Shown: piece by piece, positions 2,161 through 49,033 of the stretch | Numbering within the stretch: position 1 is the first letter of the stretch | Layout: every line of letters starts with the position of its first letter | From: Branchiostoma floridae | Taxonomy: Eukaryota; Chordata; Leptocardii; Amphioxiformes; Branchiostomatidae | NCBI RefSeq assembly: GCF_000003815.2 | Contig: NC_049983.1 | Coordinates: forward strand, 11,666,283 to 11,730,282 | Length of the DNA: 64,000 bases | Direction: 5' to 3' | Program-made: the position numbers and the translations under genes | The notes under the pieces: generated by a model | What the model saw: the letters and a program-made list of their open reading frames with translations, nothing else | What the model was told of the DNA's origin: nothing | Database searches by the model: none

Positions 2161-9266
<7,106 letters not shown>

Positions 9267-26513: not shown

Positions 26514-28139
26514 TTACTGAGTTTCTATTCGATACGTGACTTCTCGGAGTAGAAATTGGGCGGATCTTGGAGGATAACGACGGCGGCGGTACCTTTGCGC
26601 GAGAGGTTGTCCCGGGTCAAGGTCGGGCCCTGATGTGTCTACGGTTATGTTGAACCTTCTGGGGAGACCTCGCCTCCCGAGGGCCACGTACCATCTCTGT
26701 TCCGTGGAGCCTGAGTCTGACAGGGTGTTTGTGGACGAGTACGTGTTGTACCCATTCTCCTCTAGAGTCTCGCGGAACACGCAGTCCGGTCCGGAAACTT
26801 CCTGAAGAAAACGTAGTTTTGATACGTGGTTCAACTTTGCAAGAGTAATACCTGCTAGCTAGTCTGATATCGNNNNNNNNNNNNNNNNNNNNNNNNNNNN
26901 NNNNNNNNNNNNNNNNNNNNNNNNNNNNNNNNNNNNNNNNNNNNNNNNNNNNNNNNNNNNNNNNNNNNNNNNACCGCTTTAGCCGGTATTTGACCGTCTT
27001 GTGACACGGGTAAATCTGCTTGAAGATTATCGATCTCGGACTATACATTGTAAAAGAAATTCAAAGGGGGCTCGGGACGGATGGATGAGGAATGACAGAG
27101 AAAAAAGTAAGACTGAAAGCAATGATTCAAAGAAAAAGAAGAAGAAAATGGAAATATGAAAATGAGAGGTGGAAAGAGGATAAGAAGGAAAAGGATGAAT
27201 GGATGGATGAAAGGATAGACGGATGGACGGACGGACGGGCGGATGGATGGATGGGTTGTTGGATGAAAACATGATGAATTTCGCTATCAAGATGACTAAC
27301 TTACCGAGCTGTAGAGGTGCCCCGTGTCGTTGTTGATACACAGGTGGAGTCTGGTGTTGAGTCCCATGATCCTCACCTCCCCGTTGTACGGTCTGTCAAA
27401 GGGTGAGTGGACAGCGTACACCACCGGAAACAGCTCCATGATGGCTAACGTCGACAAAGGGAGGGAAATGAGTTACACTGGAAAAGTATGCAAAAAAGCA
27501 CAGCATCTATTCGTATATACTACCGTCTTCATTTGCTAATGCCTAAAGCTAATGCCTGGGTCACTTTTCCGGCCGGCCGGGCAGCTTTCGGGAAAGACAA
27601 ATATGATATAAAGGAGACCAAACAAACAACACAAGACGTAATTCAAGAAACTTGAAGTCGTGGGCATTGTTTGTGTATATTTTCACGCATATATTTCTAT
27701 TTTTCGTTTCCACAAACAGCCCGGCCGGCCCCGGTTTGGAAATGTGACTTTAGCATGAGCGCTACCATATGCTGAAACTTTTCCGAGTTAGATACTGCTG
27801 GCATATGATACTAGTTAACTGCACAAAATGACAAGGAAAGTGATGAAAAGAGGAAAATACCATAACTATACCCATGCAACATAAATCACACTTACAATCA
27901 GGGTGGTTGTCCTCCCTGGTCCCCCCTACAGTCCCGTTAGCGTCAATCCGCAGGTGAAAGCCATTACTCCGGCAGTACAGCTGCCTGATGCGCACCACGC
28001 CGCTGTCGTCCGCGGATATGCCTCTTGTGAGGCGCTCTGAGTCTCTACCGTAAGGCACAAGAACTGGTATACCCACGCTCGTCTTGAGAACTAAGACGCA
28101 CGCCAGTGAAATGACTTTAAATCTGAGAACTTCTTTCAT
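26514..28139 (-). CDS. FGF: Fibroblast growth factor family ligand
   Basis: Exons 27896-28139, 27305-27444 and 26514-26801 keep phase and give 223 residues, the classic three-exon FGF layout. The start MKEVLRFKVISLACVLVLK is a secretion signal. An in-frame ATG nine codons upstream (28166) would put a polar stretch before it, so 28139 is preferred. The beta-trefoil core shows RQLYCRSNGFHLRI, GTVGGTREDNHPDSIMEL, RLHLCINNDTGHLYSS, CVFRETLEENGYNTYSS and RWYVALGRRGLPRR. The GYNTYSS and YVAL segments are FGF signatures. The tail has a basic RYRRRRYPPRS cluster that suits heparan sulfate binding. Between strands there is an insertion (VHSPFDRPYNG) absent from typical FGFs. By eye it is nearest the FGF3/7/10/22 group, but subfamily needs a tree. 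The gene would signal through a receptor tyrosine kinase. Confidence 0.94.
26873..26972. other. Assembly gap of 100 N
   Basis: One hundred N bases lie in FGF intron 2, between the exons at 26514-26801 and 27305-27444. The reading phase across the intron is intact, so no FGF coding sequence appears to be lost. Confidence 0.99.
27193..27265. repeat. (GGAT/GGAC)n simple repeat
   Basis: A tetranucleotide repeat of GGAT and GGAC units lies in FGF intron 2, about 40 bp from exon 2. It follows a purine-rich stretch at 27090-27190. Confidence 0.9.
27560..27748 (+). mobile_element. MITE family copy 1, in FGF intron 1
   Basis: The left end is GTCACTTTTCCGGCCGG and the right end GGTTTGGAAATGTGAC. They form imperfect terminal inverted repeats around GC-rich GGCCGGCC blocks. 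The AT-rich middle contains TTTCTATTTTTCGTTTCCAC then AAACAG. Copies at 42335-42498 (opposite direction) and 46370-46573 (same direction) share ends and middle. It has no coding capacity. It ends about 115 bp from the FGF exon 2 side of intron 1. Confidence 0.85.
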
Positions 28140-31100
28140 GGTGTACATATATTGGTGATCTTTCAAGTTGTAGCTTCGATGTAAGTTTTGAAAGGCACTA
28201 CATTTTTGTGTGGTGTTTTATAGGTACCTATCGGGCACTCCTATGTTTATACCAAATACCAAAGAAGACAAAACGTTCCTTAAGAAAGTTCTTATTGTTT
28301 GTGACAGGAAAAGCTCCAACGTACGTCATAGTACAAGTTCATTTACCATTGGGAAGAATTCCCTTTTTGATTTGTTATCGCAAACATCACAAAGACCCAA
28401 CAAAGCTTTGCGTGATTGCATAACATAAGCTCCACGTCAAAGCATTGATTTGAATACCGCACATATTTTCCCTAACTACCCTTCGCCTACCCCCTTTCAC
28501 AACACCTACCTGTTTACAACGTCAGCTGATGATGATTTATATGTTTTACATAATTCAGACCTTTGGACGTCATTGCCAATATAATGAAACAAAAAGATAT
28601 GTGTTCGCTACGACATTACATTACTATATTTAGGACACCTCTTTTGTTGTTGCCATAAACAGGGCAGGGTACGTTACAAGTGTCAGGATCCATGCTCGGA
28701 AAGAGCCGCATGGCATGTCAACAGGACTTACTGCTTTGTATTTTTCACCGCTTTGAAAACAATCTGGTGCGTACACATCCTTGGTGGCCGGCATGTACCA
28801 TATTACGACAAGAGGGATGTTACATTTCAACGATACTTACAAGGGTCAATGACTTGAGAGTTATATATAATCATCTAGAGACAAGAGAGGTTGGGCTTAC
28901 GGTAAGAACAACGCCTGAATTCGACAGTCGCATGGCGTGCACAGTGTGTCCGGTTAACAGGGCTCTTTTTAACTTCTCACAAGACGGCGGCGTGTGCCGG
29001 TAGTAACAGAGAAGGTCAAGAACAAAAGTAAACTCTGAGGTGTGAAAGCACACTCATATCTGAGACCTCCCAAGAATCCTTCTCGTTCAACTCTCTGTTG
29101 TCACAGGAAACCGACTTGACAAACTTCTCTGATCTCAGTGTCCACACACCAACACGATTCCCGGGCGGGATATCCTGCTAGTGCTGTGAACACAATATCT
29201 TTTTTCTTTAGTATATACTACTACATACATGTAAACAATTTAAAACTAACAAACGACATTTAAGACGCAGTATGTTCTCAATGGAGGGTCTGCATTGGGG
29301 GCTAATAAGTATAAAGGCTTTACGGTAGGTTCAGGAGATTTGGCAACAGTTAACGGTAACTTGACTTCTATAGGATTTTTTCATAGGATATCCTACACAA
29401 TGAGGCGCCTTTAGATTTAGTTTCAGGAACTGCTTCTGGCGTTCGCCGGATTTCGACATACGAATTTGTCAGTAACGCCTAACGTTAACAATGAATTTAG
29501 GATAGAATATCTGGATAGGATCAATCATAAAGTGACAAATTACGCGTTGCAATTAATTTGCCCGGACAATTGTCTTTTAGAGCTTTCACTACACCTCCCG
29601 AAAAGGCATACAGACCCACTAGATATACTTACAGGGTTATCTGTCGGGACTTTAAAATATCAGGTGAGTATTCAAAACATTCATTCCTTCCTTCCTTCCG
29701 GAGCCTCGCACGGAAATTAGTATGGATGGTGGAAGTTTGCTTCGATCGTTGCAAATAGATGCACATTGAAAGTTATGCTTCAAGTTGTAGGTCACTGAAC
29801 TTCGGAAGCACGAGGAATTCCAACATTTCCTAACTGATAATATCGTCTATCATTAATAAAACTTTATGATACAAAATGTACTGTAAAGCTTGACCACTGA
29901 ATGATATGTCAAAAATGAAACACATTTCATCTGCGAATGTCCCCTATTCGATGCTGAAAGAAACACACTGTTTGAAAGAGTGTCCGAAATCACACCAAAC
30001 TTTCCATTTTTTAAAAACACGCAAAAGACCCACCTTCTGCTAAGATCATCGAATCAATCTATCATAGAAAACGTGGGACATGTCATTTTTAACTGTTTTC
30101 AAAAAAGAAGTCAAACCCCGCAATAGTAATGTAGGTACGATATTAATTCTGTATGTACATACAGTCATTAATCTTTGTATGTTAGAATTTAGATTATTTA
30201 CCCGTTTTCAATCACTCCATGTATTTGATTTTGTTCACTTGCAATTAGCCCCATGGGAATGAATTTGCAATAAAACATTGTCCTTTGTAGCATTATTTTT
30301 TCATTGCGAAGACAGCGAAGAAACTTAACTTTGATAAAATCTGTGAGAGAAAAAAGTTGTTTTATTCCGATTCTGACGGTAAATTTGTTGTATCATTTAT
30401 GTCGAGACTGGTCACAGATAGTCCAATCATTTGATCAACCTTTTAAGATGGGCGCCTTTCTAATCTGTTGACTTATCCATCTATAAATTCAGACCTCAGT
30501 TCTTGAAAAGCATCCATCACTGCAGGTATATCCTGTCTGTATGTGCTCGAGGGGGTCACCAGCTGATCGCACGGAAGTGGAAGTGGGACTCCCAATTCTA
30601 CGCCAAGGGGGGGGGGGGTCACAAAAAACTCAAGTCAAAGAAACTATGAAGCGTACATGTAAAACGAGCTCTATTAATAAGATATATTATATTACTAAGA
30701 TATTATTGGGACAAAACGGTTATCTAAGTAATGTCTATCTTCTTAACATAAAAGAGTAAGCTTTGTGTCACTGAGAGGACCCCAAAACTGACGACCAAAT
30801 GGAGCATTCCATCTGATCATAATGACAACAATGGCGGCCTCGAAGGAGCCCTGGCAGATTCCTTATCGAAATTATCGATTAATGTCAACAAATAATCGTC
30901 GCTGAGACAGGTAAGAACCTTTCTTCTCTCGCTGTTGCGACACGTCATGCAATGGTGCAAGAATGGGGCCGAAAATACACCCGGAAAGACTTTGTGGGTG
31001 GCGGTATTTGCGGTCAGATTCCCCGGTCGGGGTGCGTGGTCGCGCGCTGTCGTGTGTGTGCCGCAGTTTGACCTACTAGTATTTCTGAAACACCCTTTGC

Positions 31101-31823
31101 TAAATATGTACTCATTAGCACCCTGTGTTGTAAACACATCAATGCATACATGCGAAAGTACATGACCATACATGGAGGTATTTCCCCCGAAATAAACCGT
31201 CATATAATCTGAAAGATTTTAGGTAGTTCAGGAAATTTTGTGGTAGTGCGCCTCTATGTGTGTGGTCACGTTACGCATGGTAGTTCTAGTGTTGAACGTT
31301 AAAAAAGGGACACTTAAAATGACACTGAAAAAGGTCCGTCGCTTTGTTAGTGTTAAAGGTAAATATTCGCGTACTTTGCGCTGTGCAGGGGTCATAAAGT
31401 GATGTTTGATTCCATAGTTCAGTGCCCTGTTTAACATAGTTGAGTCATCAAGCAAGCCTAACACGTTTTAATTGCGAGGGGGTGTGGCATGCCAAATGAG
31501 GTATAAAACTGAACTGATTGGGTCAACAAGAAATTGAATTGAAATAATTGCATTAAGGATTCTTCACATTTTGGGTGCATCATCCAGAATGGTGAGACGT
31601 AAAAATCACAAATTGTGTACGTGTAGCTGTGGTTTCTTCCCCCCTTTGATTCTAATCTAAATGTGTACACTCCCACTTCTTATCTGAACAACTGTCGCTG
31701 TACACAAAGTAACGCAAACATGTAGATTTAGTCACAGAGGTTGTCATTACATTTCATTTCCTTGTTCCCAGTTGCCGAACACCTTATGTGTTTTTACCTC
31801 TGTCCCTGATAGCTGGAACTGAG
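28140..31823. other. Intergenic region between FGF and the bHLH gene
   Basis: The two genes point away from each other across about 3.7 kb. No coding exon was recognised on either strand. The segment should hold the FGF promoter on its left and the bHLH gene promoter and a noncoding exon on its right. A candidate acceptor (CTGATAG) lies at 31805-31811, 12 bases before the bHLH ATG. A G-run lies near 30606. I saw no clear mobile element. Confidence 0.5.
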
Positions 31824-33736
31824 ATGACTCTTGCCTCAACATCAGCAGAAACCACCGTTACCATGGCAACATCCAGTAGTACTGACGACGCTGGCGAGGA
31901 GCGTCGTATCAACTCCTACCTGTTTGACGACCCCAGGAAGAAGTCCCGCAACTACCTAGATACTCACAAGAACATTGAGAAGAAACGCAGAGATCGTATC
32001 AACACTAGTCTTACAGCGCTGAAGTCCATAATTCCAGAGTGTAAGTCCTATGGCAAGAAAAAATTGGACAAGGCAGAAATCCTAGAAATGACATTGTCGT
32101 ATCTAGACAAAGTTCACAGTAGTGGCTTTACCTTAAGACTAGGAGGAACAGCAAACTCCAGGGAACTGGGCAAAGCAACTCATGCAATGGGTGCACCAGG
32201 AGAAAAAGAATTTCCACACTGTGGATGAGTTTGTCAATGCATTACTGACACATTTGCAGACTTGTGTCGTCAGCGGTAGTTTTGCTCCTGTGGATCTCAA
32301 GGGTATGCTGCAAGGTACGTCCGCGCCAGACACTCATGTGTCACAAACTGTCGTTACCTGTCAAGCTCAGCCAGCTGTCACCAGTAACACAGCTGCTGTA
32401 TCAAGCACGTCTAGCCAAACTCTCGTCACCGCCATGTCTTCAGTGTCCCAGTCTCCAGCCAACACAGTGACCAGTGCTACCTCAGGAAGCTATCAGAATG
32501 GACTGATGAGGGCACGCCCCCCTCCCCCACCCAACGTCACCCCTGCGATTTTTCTCCAGGCAACCAGTTTCCAGGCTCGTCTGCGGGCTCAAGCGGCTTC
32601 GCACATCTCTTCGGCACCAACCATGCAGCAACAGGTGTTTCCCTCGGCTGCCATTATTCTACAGCCTCAGCAACAACAACAACAACAACACCAGGCGATG
32701 CCCTCCCAACAGGTCATAAATGTGACACAACCCATTGACCTCACCCAGCAGTGCAACTCAAAACAAAGAGATGTCCTTGACCTCCGGATGACCTCCCAAG
32801 GTCGTGAGCAACTGGTGGCATCCAATCAGTGCATCCAAAGACTTCAGCAGCTCATTGACCAGCACAGCATGCAAGAACAGAGCCTGATGCAGGTGCAGCC
32901 TCAGAATGTGCAGATGCCAAATGCAGTGCCATATGTGGAGTCGACAGCAAGCCACCCTCCAGCATACACACAGAACATGGCAGGAAATTTACAAGGGAAT
33001 GACCTTTCGTTCATTAACAGTGCTTCACAGGCCTACATTCTTGCCGAGCTCCCAGCGGGAGTGCTGCTGCAGGATAGAATGCTGGGCTCAGTAGGAGAGA
33101 TGCTGTCTGATGGAACAGCCATGGATACTGTCCCAACTGTTCCCCCAAATGGTAAGAGACAGACTTTCATCTCCTGCTAAGAAGGTCATTCTTTCAGTAC
33201 TATTTTTTTGGTAAAGATAGTTGGAAAATATTATTGGATTAGAACAAGTCTTATTGTTTTTGTTGAGAAAATATAGAGTACAAAACAGCACAACCTCAGT
33301 CAAGATGTATGACTTGCTAATTCAAGGAACTAATTCATGTACAAAGGAAAAGCAGAGTTGTGACGTTATTCGATTTATGTTATTGTTTTGTTTTCCGTAA
33401 CAGACAGTGACACCAGCTACCACAACCCAGAACAGCTCCAAGTGCCAGGCATTGGGGAGTCACCAGTCACAGAGTTTGTGGACCCCAGTGCTCTCCATGT
33501 GTCCACTGTTGTAGATGACTCAGCTCTGATGGGTAACTTTATTTGTTAGTTTTCAGTGAAAAATATATCTTGATCACCCCTCCACAATGTCTTAAATGGT
33601 ATAGCCTTTGTTTAAGGTCAGTGTCCGTTCGGGCATAGACATTTGTTAAATCATACTGTCATGTGTTCCAGGGACCCCTGACCTTCCATCCTGGAGTAAC
33701 AGCCCAATCAGTGCCTTGGAACAGGCTCCGACGTGA
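31824..33736 (+). CDS. bHLH-Orange transcription factor (HES/HEY/DEC-related), one apparent frame shift
   Basis: Exons 31824-33151, 33404-33532 and 33672-33736 give about 506 residues if one extra base is discounted. The basic helix-loop-helix reads THKNIEKKRRDRINTSLTAL then KLDKAEILEMTLSYLDKVH. An Orange-like domain follows (SRELGKQLMQWVHQEKKNF, then FVNALLTHLQTC). Its two halves lie in different frames, and the change falls at the AAA at 32172-32174. Exon phases close only with one base fewer there, or with a 43-nt intron at 32119-32161 (GT-AG), which seems too short. A sequencing error is likeliest. Later parts are Gln/Ser/Thr/Pro-rich, with an eight-Gln run near 32668-32691. There is no WRPW or YRPW corepressor motif at the end (SALEQAPT). 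The basic region lacks the HES proline. Repressor action is family inference. Confidence 0.85.
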
Positions 33737-38539: not shown

Positions 38540-41500
38540 ATGGCTCATCCACCAGGTGAGTTTATCACGTTTCCTACCCACCACTGCCTTGCTGTTCTAA
38601 TCTGTGTTTGTGTATGGTGTGTTTACTTCTTGATAACTTATCACGCCCGTCCGCTGCGGGTATCTTGACCGTTGGTCGCACCAAGGAGGTATAGAAACCG
38701 CTTGGCCGTGCATACCGTAGTACGGGGCAAGCGATTTCTCAGAATATAAGTGCGAGAACACCGGGCTGGTAACCATCCATAAGTTTCTTATCATTAGGAT
38801 TTATTTAATGTCGAATATGATCATTCTATCAAATGGAAATTATTCAGAAAGTACTTCGGCTTCGACGGCTATGTAGTCCAGTACAACGCAGAGGACATGC
38901 ATGCCATTTCCTTAACATAGAGAGTTGACCGAATTTTGCGTAGTTCAGTTCCTTGATGTTAGTATGTGTTCTTTTGAATCAAGGAGGTTAAAATCATTGT
39001 TTGAATTCACCGTTAAGTGCTGTCGGGACCCCCCAAGGGGCCCAAGCAGACCCGATATGAATTGTATTCCGTTTGCTATCACATAATTCAGAAGATATTC
39101 TGTTTACACAGTAGAAGCATAGCTCCTTCGTAAAAGCCACAACACAGCAGCCTCAACACAAGCATGAGGTCTATTCTTGTTTTCAGCAGGGTGCCCATGT
39201 CATTGTCAAAGGACCCTCTTACTTTGGAGTTTACAAGTTATACAATTGTGTGAAATCCGACAGACAGGGCGCATTGTTACCTATTCACAGTTTCTTTGAA
39301 TGATCTTGAATCCGGCTGGAGAAGTGCTGAATACTTCCTTGTTTGCGAAATTTCCCCCCGTCACGTCTTCAGCCGAGGTTTGTGGTAGCCAGCATGACCT
39401 TTCGCGGGGAAGTTCAACGAACTCAAGAGTTTGTACCGCCAGTACAGGATATCAGATACGGATGAATGAATGTATTGCACTTAGCATGGCGTTGCAATAA
39501 GTCTGTCCACTGTCGGATAAAGGATATCAGGGAAGTTTGAACTTCCTTGATGATATCAAGGTGATGTTGAGCTTACTAAGAAACCACTCTGCAAAACAAG
39601 GAAGTTTCAGATTGGCACGGCTTCAATGTCGCGTCTTAGATGACATGTACAATCTGGTTCCAATAAGAGAAGTAGATATTTACACGTCTGAAGGAACTGC
39701 TCGCATGTTAGATGTTGACCAGAGTCAGCCGGCCCATTCACAAATGCCATTTTCACTTGTTGTCAAACGCTTCGTCCCTCAAACCTCTTCCCGAGTTGGG
39801 GTGAAAATGAGTCTAGATATTAAAAAAGGGCGACATGAGAGGACGTAATGTTATAAAATTTAAAGATTACACTATTCTTTATTCTTTCTTTATATTTACT
39901 TTTCAAACTTTAGCTCAGATTTGCTTCATTGCCCGGTAAACACCGGACTTTCAGGGCTTAGCGAAACATACATACAGTCTATTGTACTAGTCAAGGGACT
40001 TTCTGAATGTCTGTATTTTCTCTGTCATATCCCCAGCTCTAACCGTTGTAACGGCGATCCTGCTGTTGAGCGGCGTTACGGCGTTTGACATAGATGTAGG
40101 GGGCATCTGTGAAGATGAGGCGGAGCCCTGTGCCTGCGGATCTACTGGTCTCAACTTCGTCATCACGTATAAGACGTGAGTCTCTTTAACATGCTTTATT
40201 AATATTCCTCCAACGGTTTTATTGAAAGCAAAGTAGCACTGGATTAGTAAAAATTACAGTTATGTTCCACTCAATACAATGTTCTTGATTTCAAATTAGC
40301 TTTTTATTTGCTCCTACATACAATTGCCATCGGGCTTTACCTTAAGAACACACGTTTAGAACTGTCTAAAAACCATCAATGCCCTCTTAATAATAATACT
40401 CTAAGTCGTAAGCCATACCAAAAACACCAGAATGAGGATGTTGTAGCCCATCATGTGACTTGAAGGGACGGAGCTCACCTATCAAAAGCCTGTGTATAAT
40501 TCTTAAGCTTTGAACATTTCAACAAGACTTGTCTGTATCTGTATCTATATGGCGTAACACACAGGCACTTTGGCGTAACGCACAAGCTTAACGTCGTTGT
40601 CAATGTCCCTCCGCAGATGCGCAGCGTTCTACCGCTGGAAGCCCTACTGTCGCATCTGTGGTGACGTGGACCACAATGACGTGTGTCAGCAGTACCGTTA
40701 CTGCGCAGAGTGCCGTGACCTCAAGTACACGGAGTCTGACGGCTGCGCCAGATGTCCACCCAACAAGTACGGGAAGTTCTGCACATTAGGTCAGTATATC
40801 ATTTTGTACATGTACAATTTAGTACTATGTATACAGTTGCATTTTAATTCTGTCTCAATATTATTCATCGGTATATTGTACATACTCGGTATACCTAGTT
40901 TTGTGATAAGAAGGTATGCTATTTAAATGATGTTATTCAAAAGTTCTCTAACACATGCTTATTATATCCACTATTCATTGTTTCCTTGTTCCTATTAGGC
41001 CATGTTGATTTCAATACATTGATCCATGCGAGCATCAACTTTTGTCCTTTTCGAATAAGAAAGTTTCGATCATAATGTAAATCGTATAAAACAATATATC
41101 TGCAAACTTATGCCCTAAGTTGCAAAAAGAATATCAAAAGCCGGATACTGATGTTTATCAAAAGCCGGATACTGATGTTGTAGGGAGTCAATCCCAAAGA
41201 TAAAGATGACAAAGTGAAAGAACAAGAATGAAAATAGATTGTTTGGCATACCATACCCGACTTGCTTTGTCATTTGCTAAACCTTCCTGATTACTTAGAT
41301 TTCATATTACAGGCAACTTTTTATTCTTATTCACACGCTCGCATCAGTTGTAAGGTTTCTAGATTATGTCATCCATGTAATCTTACACTTTTTGTTCCCT
41401 TTACCCTTCAGATTGTAATTGTCGGAACGGAGGTGTCTGTAAGTCGGACGGGCGCTGCGAATGTTCGGCGGCATTTCATGGTCGATACTGCCAGCATGAA

Positions 41501-44500
41501 GTCGGTCAGTTCTGTCTTTGAACATGTTACAACATTATAAACATGTTTCTGGACTTTTTATTTGATTCAACCCTACAACCTGAAAACGTAACGACACAGA
41601 AAATGTTTGTGTGTGCGCACCGTTCATGTTACTGATATACATAACGCTACAAATTTGATCTGTTCACTTTTGTATCTCGTCGTCCCCCAGAGCCAGAAGT
41701 GACTTGTCCCGACCGAGGAACCCCGCCTAATGGTCAGTTAAGGTCAAGGCCTTTGGCTAGCTACACGGAGGGGTCGACGGTCCGTTTTGAGTGCAACGAT
41801 GGTTACAGTCTACGTGGTTCCAGCACGTCTAGGTGTGAGTCGTCCGGTAGTTGGAGCAGCCCCGTTCCTTCATGTGGTAAGACCCAAAGACTTTGAGTTA
41901 TCCTAATCAACAAGTTTTGAAGAAAAGGGAACTCGTTTTTCAATGAATGAATCCACAATACCCATACCAACTTTGGCATGCATTAAAAAAAGTTTTATTC
42001 ACTTTTTCCTTGCCTTTTACATACAAAGACAACATCTAGGTAGTTGCTGGCAAAGGTTTGACCGTGGGTTTTTGTCGAGTTTGCGGACGTTTATTTTCAC
42101 CTTTTCTTCTCAGTTAAAGTTTGCCAGGACCCTGGGACACCTACCAACGGTAGAATTGTCCCTACCGGAAACCGACAACAACAGCAATACCGACGGCCTG
42201 AATCGCACCACAACATCGGCAGCCAGGTCACATTTCGGTGCAATGACGGGTATCGTCTGGTAGGGGCCGCCCAGATCATCTGTACGTACGATGGGCAGTG
42301 GAACGACGTCATCCCATCTTGTGGTAAGTCTAACTTCACATCCACAAACAGGGACCCGGTCAGGCTGTTTGTGGAAACGAAAAATAGAAATGTATACGTA
42401 AAAATATACACAAGTAATGCCGACGACTATTCTCTATATGTCTTGTGTAGTTATGTGTCTTTTATAGCTGCCCGGCCAGGCCCCGGTTTGGAAATACATG
42501 TATATTCAACGATTCCATTACAACACGTCACAGACATTTTTGCACACGTGATAGTATTTCAACTAAAACGTTTACATGAAAGCAACAAACGGTTTATTTT
42601 ATGCCTCTTATAGTCAACCTACATGGTACATGTACGTTGTATACCCCACACGGTATGATCGTCTTCGTGATTTTGTTACAGTCATAACAAATTAAATCAT
42701 ATTTTTCTCCGCCTTTAAGTCTCATTTTCCAACGCTTATCTAGTGCGTGTTTGCTCCTTGCCGGCTCTGCCACCAAGTGCTGTCATACAAACACCTAGAG
42801 GACGAGACCAGGTAGACGAGGGTGAAGACGTGACGTACGCATGCAACCCTGGGCACGAGTTGACATCCGGGTCTCTTACAAGAAGATGCCAAAGCGATGG
42901 AGAATGGAGCTTACAGGCCCCAGTTTGCAGTACGTCACTGTTATTTCTTTATCATATACAGTTGAATCACAACGGATTACCGCACACTTCTGTTAATTCC
43001 ACGGAATCCCAAAATCCCATGGTGGTGCGATGCAGCTGGATAACCTCGCTTTGTTGGACCACCCGAATAATTGCACGAAACTTGAACTGCGGTATGCAAT
43101 TGAACGGCTTCTACTAGCTGTAATTACGTAACTACGTTATCTGAGAAACAAGTATCAATCAATGACGGTATGAAGAATATGCCTTGAATAATGATGAGTT
43201 TACGGCAAGGATAATTGCACGTAACAGGATGTCATAGTGAGTACAGGCTGCCTCTAACTTTCAACATGTTGGGTTTGAATAAATCACATGAACAAAACCT
43301 CATGTGAAAGGCCTTCAGTACCAAGGACACCGCACATCAATGTCTCCTGAATAACTTCCTTTCTCCCTCATGCTGTACAGAGATCTCCTGTGGTCGGCCT
43401 GAAGATGCCTCGAATGCCGACATGGTCGTGGCCGGGACAATTGAGGGAGACTCTGTGAGGTACAGCTGTCATCCAGGGTACGAGAGGACGACGGGTAACC
43501 TGGAGCGGTGGTGCGTGTCGGACGGGCGGTGGAGCGGCGAGCCCCCGCGGTGTAGTAAGTCAACTTTCTTTATCGTTAGCTTTTATGATTGGAAATCCTG
43601 TATGTGGTGTGTGTGGCACAAAACACAATTTATTTGATATTTTATTAATATTAACATGAGTATGCACTCCGTGAATAGTTTCATCAGGTTGGTACGTCAT
43701 TTACTCTAATATGAATGTAAATTAGTAACTGTATGTAGTCAGTGTCTGTAAATATTTCATGTTGTTTGTACGTCTTGGTTTAACAGTCCATGAAGATTAG
43801 CTTCCTAAATTTTGATGTAGGTAGCTAATGGGCTGAAAAAAAGTTTCCAGAGTTTCCACTTTACGTTTGAAACCGCACCTGAACTGTGAGCAGCGACACC
43901 TGTGCTGCGGTACAATGTGAACCAATCAGAATTGCCCTGAACAAGGATGCAGACGGTCACCGAAACCTTGGTTGTGAATAAAACAATGATTTTGTAAAAC
44001 GGTTATCTTTATTCATTGAGTATGCACTATTTTTTGTATCTCCCCAACCAGTGAAACAGTGTGATGACCCCGGCATGCCGGCACATGGCTCACGACTCTG
44101 GGAAGGAGAGCCACAGCGGGAGGGCTCTGCTGTCGTCTATCGATGCAACCCTGGGTACGAGCTTGTTGGGGACGAGAGGAGGGAATGCCAGTCCTCTGGG
44201 GACTGGACGGGAGAACTGCCCCAGTGTGGTCAGTGTTCTCACCCAGTTAATCTCATCAGCTATGTGGTAACCACTTCCTCAATCAATTGGGAGGACCAGA
44301 GTTTGTCTATCACAATTGTACATCTCCGTCGATGGCGAATGAAATTTTACCTCCGTAATGTGTGTTTTTCCATCAAAACTGAAATAAATCTGTCTGTTAT
44401 TTTCCTTTCTTTTGATTCGTAATACAAACCTTTCTCTTGGTAAAAAAATGTTTTAGATAAAAGTAACACGTAAGAAAATGTCTCAATATAACATCAAACA

Positions 44501-47500
44501 TTCAAATTGCAGTGATTTATTTGCAAACGAAATCTTTCATCTCTCGATCAGGATCGATCTTACCCTGCTTTTTTTTCTCTTTGTAGTCATGGCAACAACC
44601 TGTGACGATCCCGGCGACGTAGCTAACGCGGACAGGAGCGTGATAGGATCGGAACCGCCGACGTTCCTGACCGGGACAAGGGTAGTCTTCAGCTGCCGCC
44701 CTCCCCGCCGGATCGTCGGACAAGCCGAGAGGAGATGTCTGTCCAACGGCACCTGGACCGGCCATCAGCCCGTCTGTACCAAATGTACGATCGTGTGCTC
44801 TCATCTCGTCATCTCGTTATATTTGTATATAAGACTACTAGCTTTTGCCTTGTGGTGTTTGTAAATGACATATTCAATGGCTATACAACAAGCCTAAGTA
44901 TTGTGACGTTACGTATGTTTGATTTTGATAACATTTAGTTTTGATGGGGAGAATAAAGTTGAGATTGAGAACAGTGCTTACCGCAAATGAAAGATAAGTA
45001 CACATTCTTCTACTGGTGCATCAGTTGATATCACCCGGACTCTTTAAACGTGATCCACCTTTAATGGTCTGGATCTTCTGCACATTGGACATCTTAATTT
45101 TGCATTGCAGTCGCAGTGTGCCAGGATCCTGGAACCCCTCTGAATGCCATAAGAAAGATTCTACCACCTGCACAGGGTCAGTCTGGCACACCCAGAAGGT
45201 ATGTGCCATTTCTATACATCTAGAGTCCATTCCAAGACACCACGCGGATGTCTGTTGCCATTGTTTAGAATTGATTTTAAAGTTTTGTAATTATATGTCT
45301 AGGACATTTGATACTTCAGAAATATTTTTAACATTGTTTCAACTTTATAAATATTTCCCTGGTCCTATAAAACTTTGGAAATATTCATGGTGTGGAATTG
45401 GATACTTCTAATGGTTTCTAAATAATGATAACAGCATTCTACCATTATTTACCATTTTCTACCATTTGTTGTAAATGGTTCGGTGGGCTGGGAAGATAGC
45501 AATTCACACATCCTTGCAAAGTATGGTTGGGTGCCATGCAACAATGGCCCACCACAAAGGATCCACCAGTGCCCAGCAGTGAAATCTAAAAATATACAGA
45601 TGCAACAATAGGGCTTACTTTTATGGGGGCAATAAACTAATTTTACCATTTGGCCAGGTTTACAATTTTTTGTAAATGTGAAATAATCACAGAGAGGTTT
45701 CACAATTATTCTAAATAAAGATATTTTTGTACAGTTACTTTCAAAATGTTTCTAAAATATTCAAAGAAATTCAAATAAATGAGTATTTTCTTAGTCAATT
45801 TTTTAAAAATTATCTGGTTATTGTGGCTCAGATATTCTTTTACTCAAAATGATTCAGACTAATTATAAATATCGCCTAAAAACCCTCGTGGTGTCTTGGA
45901 ATGGACTCTATAGCAGACGGTATCAGTTCTTTTTTTCGAAAACGTGAAGAGGGTGAAACCAATTGCAAGGTCTTTGGTGAATACTACCCAAGCGAAACAG
46001 AACCCCCAGAAAAGAGTAGAACAATGGTTTATTTTATTTCTTGGCCTTTTACAGGAGAGTTAACAGTCGACTCCTGACTTTCTTCGGCCTGCGTCCCCTG
46101 AGTCACGTGCCCGCTGAGTCCCCGGCGCAGCCCTCCGCGGAGGGCTCGGGTGACGATGCCGCTGGTGGCGACCCCGAGCCGCGGAACCTGCCTCCGGGTC
46201 ACTACAAACTCCACACCCGCCTGGTGTACAGCTGCGAGTCCCAGTTCTACAAACTGTCCGGACCTTCTCAGAGAACGTGCCTGAGTCACGGGCAGTGGAG
46301 CGGCAGGCAGCCCACATGTTTACCAGGTACTAATGGTCCTGCTAGTGACAAAACTATGTGCTTATTTTTGGTTTACGCCACATTTCCAAACCCGGGCCCG
46401 GCCACGCAGCTTTCGTGAACGAAAAGCATCATATAAAAGACATCCATACTACACAAAACGAAAAAAGCATAGTCGTGTACAATATTTGTATATATGTGTA
46501 CGTAATACATTTCTATTTTTTGTTTCCACTAACAGTCCGGCCGAGCCCCCAGTTTTAAAATGTGACGTTAACCCTATCAAAACGTATGATGATGCGTGAG
46601 TTTAGGATTACTAATTGGTCTAACTTACAGATAGCCTATCAGGACCCAAAATATCTGCACTACATGTGAATAATGAAAAGAAACAGAAATCCCATCTCTG
46701 TGTATAAACTACAAGTTAAAATCAAGCATTGTAGACTCCTTGGTTGAACAGTTTCTGCATTGTCTCCCCGTAGTTTGCGGCAAGAGTCCTGGCGCCAAGA
46801 CTCCGTTTATCTTCAACGGTAACGTGAGTGCGGAGGGGCAGTGGCCGTGGCAGGCAGCCATTCTCAGGAACGTGCAGAACTCAACAGGGCACATCTTCTT
46901 TTACCTGGTCAGCTCAACACTTATTATTTTTCGATACGCAGTGGGAAAGATTCTATTAAATGGTTAAAATGGGGATGGTTATACGTAATAGAATATGTTG
47001 GGAAAAATTAACAATCCATACGACCATGATCATGAACCTCGGCCTGGTTGCTTTGAGCTTTGTGGATATGTTAGAAGTTAACTACTAGTAATCCGTTGAG
47101 CCAGGTTTAGCAGCTCATTGAATTGGAGTAAATGCATTCCAGACCCTCCTTCCCTGTACTCAAAGCATGTTATCCTACCGTCCTGTCTCAGATCTGTGGC
47201 GGCGCCGTCCTGAATGACGAGTGGATCATCACGGCTGCGCACTGTGTGACCTTCCCCGACAGTAGCGCTGTGATCAACCTGGACAACATCAAGGTCAAAT
47301 TGGGCAAGTTCTACCGCGACGAGGCGCTGGACGACGACTATGTCCAGGAGTTTGAGGTATGAAAATTAGCTATGCTAATTCATAACTTATCACAAAGACG
47401 TATGTACATGGTACAAACATTGGGTGTAAAATGTCTCGCCAGTTGGGTGAGTTCGAGTTATGCGGGTCATTCGCAAAGCTAGAACAAAACGACATATTCT

Positions 47501-49033
47501 CGTGGCTAATGCAAATATTCAAAAGAGACATATTTCCTAATGTGTTCATCAATGATGATAGACAACAAGTAAAGTACTTGTATGCAAACACCGTGGTGCT
47601 GAATAACATTATTTCTTTGTTTCAAGTGGAGATTAGAATGAAAAGCCCTTTCCCATTTCAGATTGCTGAGATCCACGTCCATCGGCAGTTTGAACCGTTC
47701 ACGCTGGACAATGACGTGGCCCTGCTCCGACTGTCTAAGAGAGCCACCCTGACGGACCGGGTCCGGCCTGTCTGCCTCCCCACAAGACAGTATGTACTCA
47801 TGTTGTTTGTCGATTATTCATGATATGATATCAGCTTTCCATCTTGTCACTTTATATTCACCTTATTGGCGCTAATAGATAAGTCGTTTGTTTGGACATA
47901 TGGGGGTTCTATCTATGTCCTAGCTACATAGATAGAACGCTAAATACACAGATAGAAGTTTGTCCTTTCTTTGAACGACGAAAATATTGTGTGTGGTGGA
48001 AGATTATGAGTGTTCGGTTAAAAAGCTAAACGTGCACGTGATTCGCTAGTCCAGAATCATGAAATACTGGGAAAGGTCTTGTAACATACATGTACGTGTA
48101 CGTCGTAACGTTACAACAGATTTAAAACTGAGGATACTCTTGTGCGGAGGAGTCGAGGTTGTGTCTTACCTGAAAGTTATGCCGTTTTGTGACGGGAAAG
48201 CTAACATCAAAATGGTACGAAGGCCCATGAAGCAACTAACATACCGCACGTGTTGAACAGGACCACACAGAGACACCTGAGAGCCGGCTCGGAGGGAGTG
48301 GCGATCGGCTGGGGCACCACAGAGACCGGGGAGGTGGCGGCACAGCTGAAGCACGCCCGTGTGCCGGTCATCGACTCCGACACGTGTGAGGAAGCCTACG
48401 CCGAGAAGAATATCGGGCTGACGGTTACCAGGAACATGTTCTGCGCTGGATACGAGGAAGGAAAGGTCAGGAACTACCAACAGTTTACATGTTAGATCTC
48501 ACTGGAAGGGGGGGGGGTGGTTGTGGCAGGGAGAAGAGGAAAGCAAGAAAATGAAAGAAAAAAGAAACAGAGGAAGTAATAAAATAAAACTGAATATAGG
48601 AAAATGTTGAATCGAAGGAAGGGTATGATGGAACAAAGAAAAACGGAATGTAGAAGCAACAAGCAATAGAGAAAGGGGTACAATGAAAGCAATTAGAGCA
48701 ATTAACGTAAAACGACAAAAAATTTGGCTACAGAAGTTGACAAACGAAAATATACCCAAAAGTACAAGTATTATTTTATATCAACTGATAATATGTCATC
48801 ATCATATTGGACTATTGTAGTGATGTTCCCCTGCAATATTTTTTCAGGTTGACGCATGTGCTGGCGACAGTGGCGGGCCCATCGTGTTCCAGACCGGGGA
48901 GGGAGAAGAGAAGAGATGGGTGTTGGAGGGGTTGGTGAGCTGGGGGAGCCCCGAGGGCTGCGGCTTGCCCATGCAGTACGGCGGCTACGTCAAACTCTTC
49001 AAATTTGTCCGCTGGATAAATAGCTTCATTTGA
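38540..49033 (+). CDS. Horseshoe-crab clotting factor C-like serine protease (factor C/PAMR1 family)
   Basis: Seventeen exons keep phase and give 909 residues: 38540-38555, 40037-40175, 40617-40789, 41412-41504, 41691-41876, 42114-42323, 42744-42929, 43381-43554, 44052-44228, 44587-44784, 45111-45198, 46055-46326, 46774-46907, 47192-47356, 47662-47789, 48261-48465 and 48848-49033. In order: signal peptide (MAHPPALTVVTAILLLSG), Cys-rich module (FYRWKPYC, CPPNKYGKFC), EGF (CNCRNGGVC), six sushi domains, a seventh sushi split by a basic Pro/Ser/Gly linker, then an S1 protease. The triad is His699 (TAAHC), Asp755 (DNDVALL) and Ser856 (GDSGGP); Asp850 sits at the trypsin-type specificity site. The activation bond is Phe649-Ile650 (KTPFIFNGN), matching SPFIWNGN in Limulus factor C. 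LCCL and C-type lectin modules of that protein are absent. EGF and sushi exons are all phase 1-1. Secreted; LPS sensing is inference. Confidence 0.95.
41132..41179. repeat. Perfect 24-bp tandem duplication
   Basis: Two adjacent identical 24-bp units (TATCAAAAGCCGGATACTGA, then TGTT) lie in intron 3 of the factor C-like gene. Identity is complete, so the duplication looks recent or has been kept by conversion. Confidence 0.95.
42335..42498 (-). mobile_element. MITE family copy 2, in factor C-like intron 6
   Basis: Read on the minus strand it matches the copy at 27560-27748 along its length: GC-rich ends, then GTGGAAACGAAAAATAGAAA and AAATATACACAA seen here on plus. It begins only about 11 bases after the exon 6 end (42323), directly behind the splice donor. 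The terminal bases are diverged (left TTCACATCC, right GGTTTGGAAATA), so it is an older or partly decayed copy. Confidence 0.8.
45223..45908. mobile_element. 686-bp Tc1/mariner-like non-autonomous element
   Basis: A perfect 22-bp terminal inverted repeat opens GAGTCCATTCCAAGACACC at 45223-45244 and closes at 45887-45908. TA lies directly outside both ends (45221-45222 and 45909-45910), the target duplication of Tc1/mariner elements. The inside is AT-rich with no transposase-like frame; a minus-strand open stretch at 45449-45703 has no recognisable motif. It fills most of intron 11 of the factor C-like gene. Confidence 0.88.
46370..46573 (+). mobile_element. MITE family copy 3, in factor C-like intron 12
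   Basis: The left end GGTTTACGCCACATTTCC and the right end, ending AAAATGTGACGTTAACC, form long imperfect inverted repeats. The interior carries the family middle TTTCTATTTTTTGTTTCCAC. It has the same direction as the copy at 27560-27748. It starts 43 bases after the exon 12 end (46326). Confidence 0.85.
47906..47938. repeat. Perfect 13-bp inverted repeat
   Basis: GTTCTATCTATGT at 47906-47918 pairs perfectly with ACATAGATAGAAC at 47926-47938 around a 7-base loop, in intron 15 of the factor C-like gene. A third partial copy (ACAGATAGAAG) follows at about 47949. It is probably a foldback remnant. Confidence 0.8.

Follow-up and report, generated by a model that had tools for sequence, protein, structure and literature searches.

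A 64,000-nucleotide stretch of the Branchiostoma floridae genome (RefSeq assembly GCF_000003815.2, contig NC_049983.1, positions 11,666,283 to 11,730,282 of the forward strand; hereafter the window) contains, at window positions 38540..49033, a gene that we assign to clotting factor C. Its identity as a factor C orthologue is strongly supported by the order of its domains, a last sushi domain split by an insert, the sequence FYRWKPYC in the N-terminal Cys-rich domain, a Phe|Ile activation site and the protease tree. Factor C is the protease by which horseshoe crabs sense bacterial endotoxin, and amphioxus is a close invertebrate relative of vertebrates. With a probability of roughly 0.62, we propose that this orthologue works by a surface-triggered zymogen mechanism with complement C3 as the likeliest substrate, and that PAMR1 is its probable orthologue in vertebrates.

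The spliced model joins 17 coding exons into one frame of 909 codons without an internal stop, and all 16 introns begin with GT and end with AG. The preliminary description of the locus, made from the sequence alone, had predicted a 909-residue protein with six sushi domains plus one split, which the model reproduces exactly; it had also placed an intact catalytic apparatus at His699, Asp755, Ser856 and Asp850, and all four residues lie where it put them. The features of the gene, with P0001 denoting its closest database match, are as follows.

38540..49033, + strand: whole gene of the factor C orthologue, 17 coding exons, 909 amino acids (spliced model and full-length match to P0001)
38540..38555, + strand: exon 1, start codon (spliced model)
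40037..40175, + strand: exon 2, signal-peptide-like hydrophobic segment, then the first part of the Cys-rich domain (model, alignment)
40617..40789, + strand: exon 3, Cys-rich domain with FYRWKPYC (model, alignment)
40633..40641, + strand: codons of Arg58-Trp59-Lys60, counterpart of Tachypleus Arg-Trp-Arg (alignment; role of the tripeptide from excerpts of PMC10672452)
41412..41504, + strand: exon 4, EGF-like domain (model, alignment)
41691-41876, 42114-42323, 42744-42929, 43381-43554, 44052-44228 and 44587-44784, + strand: exons 5-10, one sushi domain each, phase 1-1 (model, Pfam)
45111..45198, + strand: exon 11, split sushi part 1 (model, split-sushi alignment)
46055..46326, + strand: exon 12, low-complexity insert and split sushi part 2 (model, split-sushi alignment)
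46774-46907, 47192-47356, 47662-47789, 48261-48465 and 48848-49033, + strand: exons 13-17, serine protease domain (model, Pfam, tree)
46806..46811, + strand: codons of Phe649|Ile650, predicted zymogen activation site (alignment)
47240..47242, + strand: His699 (H57; spliced model)
47713..47715, + strand: Asp755 (D102; spliced model)
48851..48853, + strand: Asp850 (D189, trypsin-like S1 pocket; spliced model)
48869..48871, + strand: Ser856 (S195; spliced model)

A Pfam scan of the 909-residue protein assigned seven stretches to sushi domains and residues 650-905 to a Trypsin domain, and detected no CUB domain and, at E<=0.001, neither an LCCL nor a C-type lectin domain. The Cys-rich and EGF domains, neither of which is called by Pfam, are seen in alignment with factor Cs, so that the protein runs from an N-terminal Cys-rich domain through EGF and a sushi array to a C-terminal S1 protease. 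The catalytic residues lie in the contexts ITAAHC (His), TLDNDVAL (Asp) and DACAGDSGG (S1 Asp and Ser). An AlphaFold2 model of P0001 built with 16 sequences has a mean predicted local distance difference test score (pLDDT) of 77.6 and a predicted template modelling score of 0.45; the protease is its best-predicted part, while the insert of the split sushi is predicted to be disordered, with residues 540-589 at pLDDT <50.

When residues 620-909 were searched against 5.8 billion proteins (best 120 of 1103 matches listed), the top match was P0001, a 'clotting factor C-like' protein of Branchiostoma floridae x belcheri with 96% identity over the query. Over its full length P0001 is identical to our protein at 799 of 909 positions, with 2 gap residues, and the N-terminal and protease exons are joined in one protein in this annotated model too; identity is 93-100% in exons 13-17, 76-94% in exons 2-12 and 40% in the five-residue exon 1. 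Factor C-named proteins of the hemichordates Glandiceps and Ptychodera (P0002 and P0004) rank second and fourth (59 and 57% over the same residues) and, like P0001, have the whole architecture with nothing essential different, the residue before the activation cut being Tyr in the hemichordates and Phe in amphioxus. Other factor C-named matches listed come from spiders (46-51%), horseshoe crab (51 and 48%), Lingula (50%) and centipedes, crinoid and chiton (43-49%). Rank 3 is occupied by a TMPRSS9-like multi-protease protein with 36% identity; such proteins, and other multi-protease proteins, rank high because several domains add up, and are taken not to be orthologues, with which the tree agrees for those included. 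A further search added little, its 61 proteins being for the most part others with sushi domains. As a name, 'clotting factor C-like' is not new: amphioxus, two hemichordates and a crinoid already have proteins that bear it. We found no publication on amphioxus factor C, or on PAMR1 as a factor C relative, in a literature search that covered few subscription journals; among its results, 'clotting factor C' and 'amphioxus' co-occur in one paper, on thrips, and a tick study lists both names separately.

An alignment of ten sequences shows the aligned factor Cs to have in common a Cys-rich domain with FYRW[RK]P, an EGF domain, an insert-split last sushi and the position of the activation site. 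Tachypleus P0012, a horseshoe crab factor C with 51% identity to the amphioxus protein over residues 620-909, shares with it FYRW[RK]PYC in the Cys-rich domain, the EGF domain, a sushi array whose last member is split, and a protease that has the Phe|Ile activation site, all of the triad and the trypsin S1 Asp. The earlier claim that every module lines up with horseshoe crab factor C, apart from missing LCCL and C-type lectin domains and a raised sushi count, holds for the order Cys-rich/EGF/sushi/protease; amphioxus lacks LCCL and C-type lectin, and has seven sushi domains versus the five described for horseshoe crab factor C in the available part of PMC10672452. LCCL and lectin had been called missing; a loss in amphioxus we reject. 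Among the matches listed, spiders, ticks, sea spiders and horseshoe crabs carry an LCCL annotation, and a lectin is annotated in horseshoe crab entries and in one unnamed protein. The members from myriapods, Lingula, chiton, hemichordates and crinoid have neither annotation, and for this reason neither domain is taken as family-defining. Both appear to be chelicerate additions, LCCL being found in pycnogonids also.

The exact motif FYRW[RK]P is present in amphioxus, both hemichordates, the crinoid, Lingula, both chiton copies, two of the four centipede proteins and one of the two Tachypleus proteins; across 46 factor C-type proteins, fragments included, it occurs in 12, and RW[RK] in 22. The two chiton copies, P0058 and P0236, are both from Liolophura sinensis. 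Before the activation cut, 30 factor C-type members have Phe in 25 cases, Tyr in 2 and Leu, Val and Ser in 1 each, with no Arg or Lys. These members were chosen by the split-sushi pattern, which missed P0002, P0004, the chiton P0236 and the PAMR1 P0185; outside the 30, the hemichordates have Tyr and P0236 has Lys. The pattern used for Asp102 likewise failed on P0045, although inspection by eye shows the Asp to be there, and on three PAMR1s. Neither the RWK tripeptide nor the Phe649|Ile650 site, both marks of the family, had been named in the preliminary description. According to the title of a reference, factor C is reportedly activated by chymotrypsin and not by trypsin.

The protease tree was built from 38 domains: 17 factor C, 6 PAMR1 and 15 others (MASP1, MASP2, MASP3, thrombin, six TMPRSS9 types, two factor-B-like and three other amphioxus proteases), with C1r and C1s left out. 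The 'MASP3' and 'MASP1' rows are the two protease domains of P0072, whose source name is 'Complement C1s subcomponent'; for the first, solved MASP-3 is the best match, and the second we take to be MASP-1, while the MASP2 and thrombin rows are partial stretches. A branch with support 97/91 separates factor C and PAMR1 from all 15 others, and so the grouping foreseen in the preliminary description was recovered, with MASP1, 2 and 3 separate. The amphioxus protease groups with those of the two hemichordates (97/92), and PAMR1 is nested in factor C together with amphioxus, the hemichordates and Lingula (93/89), the branch that leaves the crinoid outside having support of 97/92.

For the membership of PAMR1 in the family, the split sushi is the better argument. 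Its insert starts in a similar way in amphioxus, hemichordates and PAMR1, with [IV]R, 2-3 residues and then LP, a short resemblance judged by eye (LS in the catshark), and by eye LP is absent at this place in Lingula, chiton, arthropods and crinoid. A profile search places PAMR1s behind the factor Cs, a few multi-protease proteins coming in between; the PAMR1 matches span 98% of the split sushi and protease. One PAMR1-type shark model, P0130 (Scyliorhinus torazame), which has several sushi domains, no CUB listed and a dead site, ETGG, outscores the named PAMR1s against factor C.

The state of the PAMR1 protease was read from 97 PAMR1-type proteins among the best 120 of 1667 matches, mostly from birds and other land vertebrates and hence not independent. 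Ser195 is Thr in all 97, Asp189 is Asn in 96 and Ser in 1, and neither a recognisable activation site nor FYRW[RK]P occurs in any of the 97; His57 is kept in 97/97 and Asp102, by pattern, in 94/97. The earlier statement that PAMR1 has lost catalytic residues is borne out for Ser195 and Asp189, along with a recognisable activation site, but has to be corrected for His57 and, mostly, Asp102, which are kept. PAMR1 shares with amphioxus factor C the split sushi, a CGK linker, the protease scaffold, His57 and mostly Asp102, and differs in having a CUB domain and a degenerate protease, where amphioxus has no CUB and a complete triad. An intact-site vertebrate factor C was not noticed among the best 120 of 1103 and the best 120 of 1667 matches. 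Comparison of PAMR1 with factor C over the Cys-rich and EGF domains together failed its controls, as 24/42 Cys-rich windows equalled or exceeded the PAMR1 profile score and 15/200 Cys-fixed shuffles scored as high as coelacanth PAMR1. When the comparison was confined to the Cys-rich domain, three of four PAMR1s gave scores of 26.5-29.1, a level reached by 5/198 control windows, which came from the tick factor Cs P0061 and P0073 and from P0066 (unnamed, sushi plus trypsin) and had not been excluded beforehand; coelacanth PAMR1 scored 20.9, with 12/198 control windows at or above it, and none of 200 Cys-fixed shuffles of chicken PAMR1 reached its score. The N-terminal Cys-rich domains of factor C and PAMR1 are probably homologous.

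In the mechanism that we envisage, amphioxus factor C would be a secreted zymogen that attaches through its Cys-rich, EGF and sushi domains to lipid A or to some other anionic surface of a microbe; zymogens clustered in this way could cleave one another after Phe649, and the freed Ile650 would switch on a trypsin-like enzyme. As the arthropod clot partners are not expected in a chordate, the likeliest substrate would be complement C3 rather than a clot; the available part of PMC3351276 describes conversion of C3 by Tachypleus factor C, acting as a C3 convertase, on Gram-negative bacteria. Binding of lipopolysaccharide (LPS) is ascribed in excerpts of PMC10672452 to Arg36-Trp37-Arg38 of Tachypleus factor C, to sushi modules as well in Carcinoscorpius, and the horseshoe crab lectin domain is said there to contribute. 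Arg58-Trp59-Lys60 of amphioxus aligns with this tripeptide, which is RWR in Tachypleus P0012, and keeps its basic-aromatic-basic pattern; the motif supports LPS binding without proving it, and the active LPS-triggered protease suggested in the preliminary description makes a good hypothesis, whereas the cascade suggested along with it would be conjecture. Vertebrate PAMR1, the nearest vertebrate relative found, would probably be the orthologue, turned pseudoenzyme and with an added CUB domain. A broader scenario, in which factor C was an old bilaterian lipid-A sensor and surface-triggered C3 convertase, stayed active in invertebrate chordates and was silenced into PAMR1 by vertebrates when other LPS sensors took over, is tentative and on balance somewhat unlikely.

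A number of results weigh against this reading. RW[RK] is missing from 15 of the 33 factor Cs with a recognisable Cys-rich domain, ticks and the second Tachypleus protein included, so that the tripeptide is not strictly kept even within factor C; in amphioxus it is RWK instead of RWR, and the lectin domain is absent. On the side of PAMR1, keeping PAMR1 out of the factor C clade costs only 4.9 log units relative to the best tree (approximately unbiased (AU) test, p 0.212), and the same test gave p 0.076 for amphioxus with PAMR1 alone and, for deuterostomes with PAMR1, p 0.094 with the crinoid and 0.386 without it. The crinoid itself sits in an odd, basal position. In a tree to which the split sushi was added (23 rows), the branch uniting amphioxus, hemichordates and PAMR1 is unsupported (17/0), with an AU p of 0.172 when the crinoid is included.

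It is quite possible, although we incline against it, that the amphioxus gene is a factor C orthologue with a non-LPS job, as a wound, developmental or matrix protease, and that LPS triggering is a chelicerate refinement. LPS triggering is described for horseshoe crabs only in the excerpts available, PMC10672452 and PMC3351276 among their sources, and PAMR1 is associated with muscle regeneration in the literature as excerpted; the restriction of LCCL to chelicerates and pycnogonids, and of lectin to horseshoe crab, among the named matches listed would also suit such a refinement. The tripeptide site in the N-terminal domain, kept as RWK in amphioxus, Lingula, the chiton and the hemichordate Glandiceps, argues for an LPS-binding role instead.

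We consider it unlikely that PAMR1 and factor C are ancient paralogues, amphioxus having lost the former and vertebrates the latter. The factor C-only clade that the AU test does not reject, a CUB domain that is annotated for no factor C among the matches listed and the long PAMR1 branch (1.52 and 2.25 in the two trees) would all accord with it, but PAMR1 falls within factor C in the best tree, the [IV]R...LP signature is common to amphioxus, hemichordates and PAMR1, and two reciprocal losses would be required. We favour PAMR1 as a silenced factor C descendant, given its nesting, the shared split sushi and the failure to find a second amphioxus gene; the preliminary description's proposal to this effect is weakened by the AU result.

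Searching the amphioxus genome exon by exon (513 Mb, 431 contigs; only the best candidates scored), we found neither a separate PAMR1 nor a second factor C. The amphioxus split-sushi query returned the window gene (90% over query residues 28-132), coelacanth PAMR1 returned the split-sushi exon of the same gene (49%, E 4e-9), and other matches reaching the split-sushi part of the query were weaker, with E of 1e-6 or more. Five weaker-match regions that were fetched contained no split sushi: the one on contig C3 holds ordinary sushi domains, those on C7 and C17 (two) hold ordinary proteases, and that on C14 holds a MASP-like sushi-plus-two-proteases gene. With the PAMR1 N-terminal query (Cys-rich plus CUB), matches began only from query residue 82 onward, on the CUB side; since this query misses the window gene's own Cys-rich exon, a divergent copy could be missed. 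Amphioxus factor C is apparently single-copy. The C14 gene (G000:C14:11990500-11999500) has two sushi exons and a single-exon protease, with a second, split protease downstream. At G000:C15:11345349-11352533 lies a single, apparently intronless open frame of ~2423 codons with many sushi matches.

That the gene is a MASP/C1r-type or ordinary trypsin-like complement protease made to resemble factor C by domain shuffling is extremely improbable: MASP and C1r/s, too, end in sushi domains and a protease, and the C14 gene has two sushi and two protease domains, yet MASP-1, 2 and 3, which begin CUB-EGF-CUB and share the sushi plus trypsin-type protease, fall in a separate clade and are activated at Arg|Ile, not Phe|Ile, and the protease occupies five exons here versus one in the best other amphioxus match (41%, the IVGG protease of the C14 gene), so that tree and activation site reject such an origin, C1r and C1s not being in the tree.

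As to genomic surroundings, ELP4, the sole synteny probe for human 11p13 (its family and position being our assumption), lies on C2 and the window on C5, and we know of no window neighbour that is a PAMR1 neighbour. Elsewhere in the window, two long open reading frames (ORFs) lie at 3474-7060 (-), of which 3474-4592 has an AAA ATPase domain and resembles the peroxisome factor PEX1, and 6020-7060 has no Pfam match. An ORF at 27762-28217 (-) has a partial fibroblast growth factor domain (E 2e-6) and is near a run of N at about 26.6-27.1 kb. A helix-loop-helix gene at 31713-33180 (+; E 2e-14) we take to be of the Hairy/HEY/DEC kind, and a tandem-repeat ORF at 256-1155 is probably a minisatellite rather than a gene.

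The complement system of B. belcheri includes C3 and Bf, according to the excerpts available, and an intact factor C in a complement-bearing chordate would make it testable whether an LPS-sensing protease served as a complement starter in the chordate ancestor. For PAMR1, whose protease is dead in vertebrates, it would also provide a plausible working ancestor, from which PAMR1 differs by the joint absence of nucleophile, S1 Asp, activation site and LPS tripeptide.

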